Source of the DNA: a virus
DNA: 64,000 bases
Reading direction: 5' to 3' (one strand)
Virus record (IMG/VR): IMGVR_UViG_3300034283_001603
Coordinates: 27,960-91,959 of that record
Position numbers and translations under genes: made by a program. Shown piece after piece: positions 58,559-63,091 of the stretch. Below the pieces are notes generated by a model. That model saw only the letters and a program-made list of their open reading frames with translations. It was not told the origin of the DNA and made no database searches. The first letter of the stretch is position 1, and every line of letters starts with the position of its first letter.

Positions 58559-58580
58559 ATTATACCATTGACCACTGACA
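58559..58580 (-). promoter_or_regulatory. Phage promoter P1: TGTCAGTGG-N7-TATAAT
   Basis: On the minus strand TGTCAGTGG (58580-58572), seven bases and TATAAT (58564-58559) precede the gene starting at 58537. The AACGAAAGG leader element is at 58555-58547. It is one of five copies with identical spacing. Confidence 0.75.
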
Positions 58581-59848: not shown

Positions 59849-60054
59849 TAATATATCCTTTCGTTATCATTCATTATATCAGAGGCCACTGACAAAATAT
59901 GTTCCATAGTATCAATAGCACCCATGTAATAACTATCTGATTCAAAGTATTCATCTTCAGATATAGGGATGTTATTTCTAGCATCTTCTAAATCTTGTTC
60001 TAAACTAATCTTATGTATCTTCATGTATTCCAGGAAGTGTGATGACTTAGTCAA
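59848..60054 (-). CDS. Unknown small protein hosting internal promoter
   Basis: The product has 68 residues from TTG at 60054, which has GGAGG six bases upstream; the open frame extends to 60081 but without a ribosome site. Helical (KIHKISLEQDLEDARNN, YMGAIDTMEHILSVASDIM). Promoter P2 lies inside its 3' end. Confidence 0.5.
   Translation of the reverse strand: MTKSSHFLEYMKIHKISLEQDLEDARNNIPISEDEYFESDSYYMGAIDTMEHILSVASDIMNDNERIY
59873..59894 (-). promoter_or_regulatory. Phage promoter P2: TGTCAGTGG-N7-TATAAT
   Basis: TGTCAGTGG (59894-59886) and TATAAT (59878-59873) on the minus strand, inside the end of the upstream gene, with AACGAAAGG at 59867-59859 before the ATG at 59848. Confidence 0.75.
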
Positions 60055-61193: not shown

Positions 61194-61215
61194 ATTATAC
61201 AATGGACCACTGACA
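61194..61215 (-). promoter_or_regulatory. Phage promoter P3: TGTCAGTGG-N7-TATAAT
   Basis: TGTCAGTGG (61215-61207) and TATAAT (61199-61194) on the minus strand upstream of the YubB-like gene, with AACGAAAGG at 61183-61175. Confidence 0.78.
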
Positions 61216-62202: not shown

Positions 62203-62406
62203 TTAATAACCTGTGGTTTCGTAGTCTGATACATAAGATTCAGTTAAGTTGTACTTATCTCTAAGACGACTTACTTTCTCAATACTACCAGTTCCAATGT
62301 TGAATGTCAAAGGTGACATTGCTTGAGGGTCAAGTCCAGTTATTTGTGCATCCCAATAAGCCATCTCCATTGATAGCCTATCGGGAGCGGTAAGTTCAAA
62401 GTACAT
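62203..62406 (-). CDS. Unknown small protein
   Basis: The product has 67 residues; ATG overlaps the upstream stop (TAATG). MYFELTAPDRLSMEMAYWDAQITGLDPQAM occurs in similar form in other phage early regions as far as I recall; no function is known. Confidence 0.5.
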   Translation of the reverse strand: MYFELTAPDRLSMEMAYWDAQITGLDPQAMSPLTFNIGTGSIEKVSRLRDKYNLTESYVSDYETTGY

Positions 62407-63062
62407 TAGTTCTCACGAACATTCGTAACTTCAACATCTCCTACTTCAATGTTGCCGTTCTGTGATTCAACATAAAGATTGTCGTAGATTTCTGATTCAA
62501 CATCTACATCACCTTCAAGCAAATCAATTGTTAATGTTCCACTAACCTCAATAGTTGCAGACCATTCAATCTCTTTAACTAAAGGAATGTCTAGCGCTTC
62601 AGCAATTGCTTGAAGTGTTTCTTGGTCAAGTGAGTCAGCATATGCTTCGGATAAAACATCCTTAGCCATGGCAATCTTATTTGTTAAGACTGAAGCAATC
62701 TTTGAATTAGTTCGGGAGTTATGAAGTTCCCATTCAATGTTGCGGACTTTGTCTGTAGCATATGTTGGGTCTGAGTATCCACTAATAACTTTGTAGGTAA
62801 CCAATAAATCAGGGTTGTACTCTACTGCAGGTGATACTGTTGTATCTGTTGTTTCCATTGTTTCCTCTTTCGTTTGGTTTGTTGGTGCAATTGTAGCATG
62901 CTCCACTGACAATAATGTGGTCTTACGACCACACGGGCATGTGAGCTCGGTCACACCTGACGGAAATCCAAACCCGTCAGATGATGTTAGTTCTATTAGG
63001 GAATCGCATTCATCTGGGTCGCAGACAAATGTATACTTACTTGATATGGTTTCGTTGGTCAT
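62406..63062 (-). CDS. Zinc-ribbon/early-protein fusion with internal promoter and start
   Basis: The frame runs 218 residues from ATG 63062, seven bases after TATAAT (leaderless). Residues 1-55 hold a zinc ribbon (CDPDEC, CPCG). The frame then passes straight through promoter P4 and AACGAAAG leader to a second ATG at 62858 (METTDTTV), which has its own GAGG site and would give a 150-residue product. The C-terminal part (YKVISGYSDPTYATDKVRNIEW, WSATIEVSGTLTIDL) is a separate unknown domain. Two products are likely. Confidence 0.65.
   Translation of the reverse strand: MTNETISSKYTFVCDPDECDSLIELTSSDGFGFPSGVTELTCPCGRKTTLLSVEHATIAPTNQTKEETMETTDTTVSPAVEYNPDLLVTYKVISGYSDPTYATDKVRNIEWELHNSRTNSKIASVLTNKIAMAKDVLSEAYADSLDQETLQAIAEALDIPLVKEIEWSATIEVSGTLTIDLLEGDVDVESEIYDNLYVESQNGNIEVGDVEVTNVREN
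62890..62911 (-). promoter_or_regulatory. Phage promoter P4: TGTCAGTGG-N7-TACAAT, inside a frame
   Basis: TGTCAGTGG (62911-62903) and TACAAT (62895-62890) lie within the open frame of the fusion gene, with AACGAAAG just before the internal ATG at 62858. Confidence 0.72.
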
Positions 63063-63069
63063 GAAGAGA

Positions 63070-63091
63070 ATTATACAGGAGCCCACTGACA
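63070..63091 (-). promoter_or_regulatory. Phage promoter P5: TGTCAGTGG-N7-TATAAT
   Basis: TGTCAGTGG (63091-63083) and TATAAT (63075-63070) lie seven bases from the ATG at 63062. Unlike P1-P4 it lacks an AACGAAAGG leader, so its transcript should be leaderless. Confidence 0.75.

Follow-up and report, generated by a model that had tools for sequence, protein, structure and literature searches.

In-frame genes within genes are a known kind of arrangement. Gene 4A/4B of phage T7 yields a long protein that begins with a zinc-binding domain and a short one that lacks it, the internal start lying near residue 64, and IS50/Tn5 gives in-frame long and short proteins, the transposase and its inhibitor, from two overlapping transcripts. 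The locus described here is similar to both in these respects, but the short form of T7 is made by internal translation initiation, and the IS50/Tn5 proteins are unrelated to the ones studied here and have no promoter-derived linker. In Shigella, the virF gene encodes in one frame a long and an N-terminally truncated form (VirF30 and VirF21), with a gene-internal promoter and one leaderless mRNA (PMC5101355). All of these traits are present or predicted in our locus, although in virF the leaderless mRNA makes the short form whereas here the predicted leaderless mRNA would make the long one. In the Rpn genes within genes (RpnL/RpnS; PMC10327210) the C-terminal domain is also made alone and is highly variable, but the short forms arise through an internal translation start, while here there is a conserved, dedicated internal promoter and we have found no nuclease domain in the protein. 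Compared to these systems, a two-promoter fusion with one of its promoters doubling as coding sequence appears to be a new variant.

At the level of the sequence there is strong evidence that the locus is a real and conserved two-promoter gene within a gene. With good confidence we propose that promoter P5 would drive a leaderless 218-aa form and the internal promoter P4 a leadered 150-aa form, that the fusion most likely originated by recombination at promoter and leader, and that both uses of the DNA have been under selection.

Architecture of the locus and its promoter family

The window, that is, the whole stretch of viral DNA that was analysed (64,000 nucleotides), contains the following features:

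63070-63091, minus strand: promoter P5, with TGTCAGTGG at 63091-63083, a 7-nt spacer and the -10 TATAAT at 63075-63070 (exact motif)
62406-63062, minus strand: fusion ORF, long form of 218 aa, ATG at 63062 and stop at 62406 (translation)
62889-63035, minus strand: zinc-ribbon-like domain, residues 10-58 (alignment and a weak AlphaFold model)
62890-62911, minus strand: internal promoter P4, TGTCAGTGG-AGCATGC-TACAAT, in frame as (L)SVEHAT(I) (motif and near-invariant synonymous positions)
62859-62889, minus strand: P4 leader, with the Shine-Dalgarno GAAAGAGG at 62871-62864, the linker codons APTNQTKEET and the conserved leader ACGAAAGAGG
62406-62858, minus strand: second half, short form of 150 aa, from the internal ATG at 62858 (translation)
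61194-61215, minus strand: intergenic promoter of the same family before an Api92-like gene (motif)
59873-59894, minus strand: second embedded promoter, also a member of this family, within the 3'-terminal part of ORF 60081-59848, which ends in LSVASDIMNDNERIY before its stop (motif)
58559-58580, minus strand: intergenic promoter of the same family (motif)

The short and the long ORF share frame and stop, and the order along the minus strand is zinc-ribbon-like domain, P4, Shine-Dalgarno leader and 150-codon gene. According to the original prediction, the frame that starts at 63062 runs open through P4 and its leader into ATG 62858, and this was confirmed by the translation, which gives 218 codons without a stop. 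Read as codons, TTGTCAGTGGAGCATGCTACAATT...AAACGAAAGAGGAAACA gives residues 51-68 of the fusion (LSVEHATIAPTNQTKEET). The codons TTG TCA GTG GAG CAT GCT ACA ATT are the TGTCAGTGG-N7-TACAAT box, and AAACGAAAGAGG is the P4 leader, including the Shine-Dalgarno, read in the same way. It had also been proposed that the linker is the promoter read as codons. The box is indeed read as codons, but its core encodes the last zinc-ribbon-like strand and only the leader supplies the linker; this division is drawn from the weak, low-confidence AlphaFold model of the fusion (pLDDT 67), in which a strand at residues 49-58 is followed by a disordered linker, residues 53-78 being below pLDDT 50. The 218-aa protein would therefore consist of a zinc-ribbon-like head, a flexible linker and a C-terminal domain.

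Two cysteine pairs, Cys14-x4-Cys19 and Cys42-x-Cys44 (CX4C and CXC), are invariant in 42 aligned sequences of the N-terminal domain. Neither half gave a match in Pfam or PHROG, a meaningful match by sequence in the PDB or a usable match among annotated phages. Because no described zinc-ribbon family or solved fold was matched in Pfam, PHROG or the PDB sequences, "zinc ribbon" is used here as a descriptive name only. The model of the C-half, which is weak as well, has a mean pLDDT of 75 and a pTM of 0.36, and the comparison of its fold with the PDB gave no match below E 0.001, while BFVD returned one uncharacterised protein of an uncultured phage (E 4e-9). No helicase or primase similarity was found.

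P4 belongs to a family with five exact TGTCAGTGG-N7-TA[TC]AAT sites in the window, all of them on the minus strand between 58.5 and 63.1 kb; the chance expectation in shuffles is 0.01 sites in the window at up to 1 mismatch, and the remaining 28 kb of the 92-kb virus record outside the window contain no further exact box. From related loci we collected 417 distinct family sites. In their column counts, TGTCAGTGG is preceded by A/T-rich bases and the -10 often by TGn (67% T, 72% G), as would be expected of a sigma-70-type extended -10, the -10 itself being part of the search pattern. A -35 TTGACA at the usual place (16-18 nt) is absent from these counts, and TGTCAGTGG occupies an unusual place 7 nt upstream of the -10.

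Mechanical ORF callers start the gene at ATG 63092 (228 aa). Because this ATG is inside P5, it cannot be on the P5 transcript, and the sensible start is 63062. The locus is in this respect a warning for gene callers, which would place the start within P5 and miss the short protein.

Conservation of the fusion and selection on P4

Viral contigs were scanned with the complete fusion protein, with each half (the C-half as single queries) and with divergent versions, and the stop-to-stop ORFs at the loci found were sorted by profile searches. Both halves were present in 115 distinct ORFs, and additionally in L165, L184 and L185, whose zinc ribbons are very divergent. We examined 109 distinct fused copies at the level of the start codon, and 100 of them have a good P4 box (at least 12/15). 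In the divergent copies L065, L066, L070, L072, L163 and L171 the -10 and the leader are intact with only 4-5 of the 9 bases of TGTCAGTGG, and L184 and L073 are without a clear full P4 box. The distance from the P4 -10 to the ATG is 28, 31, 34, 37, 40 or 43 nt, which corresponds to six linker lengths, and no copy has a stop. Since a fused ORF is necessarily in frame, the claim has to be limited to neighbouring pairs: the halves were searched separately, and no N-half and C-half neighbours out of frame or split by a stop appeared. These data indicate that the fusion is old, conserved and not peculiar to this contig. An error of sequencing or assembly hiding a stop, for which we found no supporting point, has a negligible probability, as the relatives refute it with many independent metagenome contigs that carry the same open frame. 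The two objections foreseen with the original prediction, namely relatives that all have the full fusion but no P4-like box, and an error hiding a stop, are thus both contradicted by the relatives.

The sequence of P4 could also be conserved without any promoter activity, if the last zinc-ribbon strand needed exactly these residues, and in fact LSVE-ATI is strongly conserved as protein too in most relatives. We consider this explanation very unlikely, because synonymous positions are frozen only across P4. When P4 and the neighbouring codons of 63 non-redundant copies were compared on the same tree, the mean codon-choice entropy was 0.12 bits at the P4 codons versus 0.78 bits at the remaining conserved codons of this domain. 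Just before the box there is a Leu or a Val, yet its codon is always NTG, so that the TG of the motif is kept. Moreover, the amino acids within the box vary (EH/ED/VN/VD) while the motif stays: L050 (SVVNATI) and L334 (SVVDATI) have changed residues and kept their boxes, and L185 retains a version of the box (TGTCAG-N10-TAGAAT) in a different codon phase. The same box and leader would also drive stand-alone copies of the C-half, as described below. This pattern shows that the reading frame and the putative promoter P4 are both kept by selection, and the locus offers a clean natural case of one DNA stretch selected as promoter, ribosome-binding leader and protein code together.

If only the fused protein were made, the internal ATG and P4 would be relics of a formerly separate gene. 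This would fit a fusion that is nearly universal in this group, a few divergent members of which have a weak upstream element, but the box, the Shine-Dalgarno and the start codon are conserved at the nucleotide level far beyond the coding need, and L064 and L212 retain only the short form. We regard it as quite improbable. Our proposal is, instead, that promoter and codon uses of this DNA would have been maintained by selection since the fusion arose.

Two further elements near P4 were noted. A hairpin just before it (TGTGGTC-GTAA-GACCACA) was considered as a terminator and rejected, since its codons vary freely and it is not conserved. The codons GGT GTG (62957-62952, residues 36-37), ∼70 nt ahead of the start predicted for P4, have invariant synonymous positions in 63/63 copies; they may be a regulator site, or this may be chance.

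Separate halves and origin of the fusion

It had been suggested that homologs of the two halves should be looked for as separate genes in related phages, and both were found. There are two classes of C-half. The second class (DNHYMTREFLE...) is fused in one group and stands alone in the sister group L263-L301 (29 distinct ORFs), with the same promoter and a homologous leader in nearly all cases, while the first class stands alone in L212, and second-half homologs are also alone in L064/L190. Among the stand-alone copies with a good site, the stretch from the -10 to the ATG contains an in-frame stop in 25/29, and the length of their leader is free of frame (mod 3 = 15/8/6). The sister phages, with the same kind of gene unfused, are thus a control set. 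In L267 and L286, no family promoter precedes the second-class C-half, whose start overlaps the stop of the preceding gene (TAATG) in an operon-type arrangement.

The zinc ribbon was found alone in two loci, L342 and L217. The neighbours of the L342 gene resemble, by eye, the early genes of the window; the contig sits in a MAG labelled Chitinophagaceae, but with early genes of the type seen in this phage group it probably belongs to a phage and was misbinned. The zinc-ribbon ORF of L217 (116-298) is leaderless and has its own promoter (TTGACA/TATAAT), and its 3' end carries the TGTCAGAGT-N7-TATAAT promoter of an Api92-like gene, with the stop in the leader of that gene. By its sequence L217 is the same architecture in an unfused state.

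In the window, ORF 60081-59848 likewise ends inside a promoter, which is read in the same codon phase as P4, and its stop overlaps the next ATG (TAATG). As this embedding is conserved in relatives, the use of a promoter to encode a C-terminal tail recurs among these phages, the fusion being the most extreme example. This gene and L217 could also be taken to mean that only the short protein matters and that the zinc ribbon simply overlaps the next promoter without harm, its read-through frame lacking a stop by chance. However, the leaders of the stand-alone genes mostly contain a stop, whereas not one of the 109 fused copies has a stop or a frame break despite the six linker lengths, and we find this alternative unlikely.

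Regarding the origin of the fusion that we propose to be functional, the original prediction was that loss of a stop codon fused two genes while the internal promoter was kept. The separate halves support that once-separate genes were joined in frame and that the promoter was retained, but a stop codon lost locally is not supported, as the fusion is old and present in at least 109 distinct copies. In the tree of the C-domain, fused copies group with fused and separate with separate (4 changes of state versus 23.6 in shuffles), the root and direction being unsettled. Furthermore, in L064 the upstream flank of P5 is joined to the downstream flank of P4 at TGTCAGTGG and the whole zinc ribbon is missing. 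In L064, then, P5 has recombined with P4 and the zinc ribbon has gone, the short gene keeping promoter, leader and start, which means that the repeated promoter can act as a joint for domain swaps. Together with L064, the joining of a near-identical N-half and P4 to two classes of C-half fits an exchange at promoter and leader better than a point mutation. The C-terminal gene would formerly have been alone behind its own promoter, and the zinc-ribbon gene would have been joined to it through promoter and leader, most likely by recombination at the repeated promoter. More tentatively, the repeated early promoter may itself be a protein-coding module, which at least two unrelated genes would read in a single phase as the C-terminal tail LLSV..(A/D)(T/I), and the repeats of promoter and leader may serve as in-frame recombination joints for domain swaps in which each domain keeps its own promoter; this is possible, but we hold it to be somewhat less than an even chance. 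The locus as a whole suggests that domain shuffling in phages can be driven by promoter repeats.

Two predicted transcripts and the probable host

The distances from the -10 to the first ATG at the family sites fall into two groups, one of 20-34 nt, in which a AACGAAAG-type Shine-Dalgarno leader is normally present, and another of 6-7 nt. In relatives, the P5 sites in front of the zinc-ribbon gene have the short distance at 59/60, and in the window ATG 63062 comes about 7 nt after the -10. Because this ATG is where transcription should start, P5 is predicted to give a leaderless mRNA: the transcript would start at or next to ATG 63062 and be translated without a leader into the 218-aa protein. 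Leaderless translation is described as robust in mycobacteria, which are Actinobacteria, nearly one quarter of the transcripts being reported to be without a leader (PMC4633059). P5 is missing in some relatives, where the long form is within an operon.

The start of transcription from P4 is predicted at about 62883, and in the predicted RNA fold the Shine-Dalgarno and AUG of its leader are unpaired. The ATG and the GAAAGAGG-type leader are kept in nearly all relatives, that is, there is an internal start with its own ribosome-binding site. From its position within the coding sequence, P4 would give another transcript, whose leader has a conventional Shine-Dalgarno, and, from it, the 150-aa C-terminal domain alone. 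Thus the mRNA of the long form is probably leaderless and that of the short form leadered, so that the two modes of translation would be paired, in a way open to testing, in the two forms of a single protein. We infer in this way the transcription starts, the leaderless translation, the two transcripts and both proteins, as well as their mixing and function, for which control of the subunit ratio is the likely working principle: the two forms would probably set how many subunits with and without the zinc ribbon take part in an early function.

The virus is a distant relative of Streptomyces phages, at 62.7% for the terminase (Gilson and others) and 57.4% for the DNA polymerase (BillNye). This relationship makes an actinobacterial freshwater host likely, if unproven, and this lake phage family probably infects Actinobacteria. 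For the DUF932 protein the value is 51.7%, with the Streptomyces phage Jay2Jay (Stanwilliamsviridae), in which the DUF932 gene lies in a different neighbourhood.
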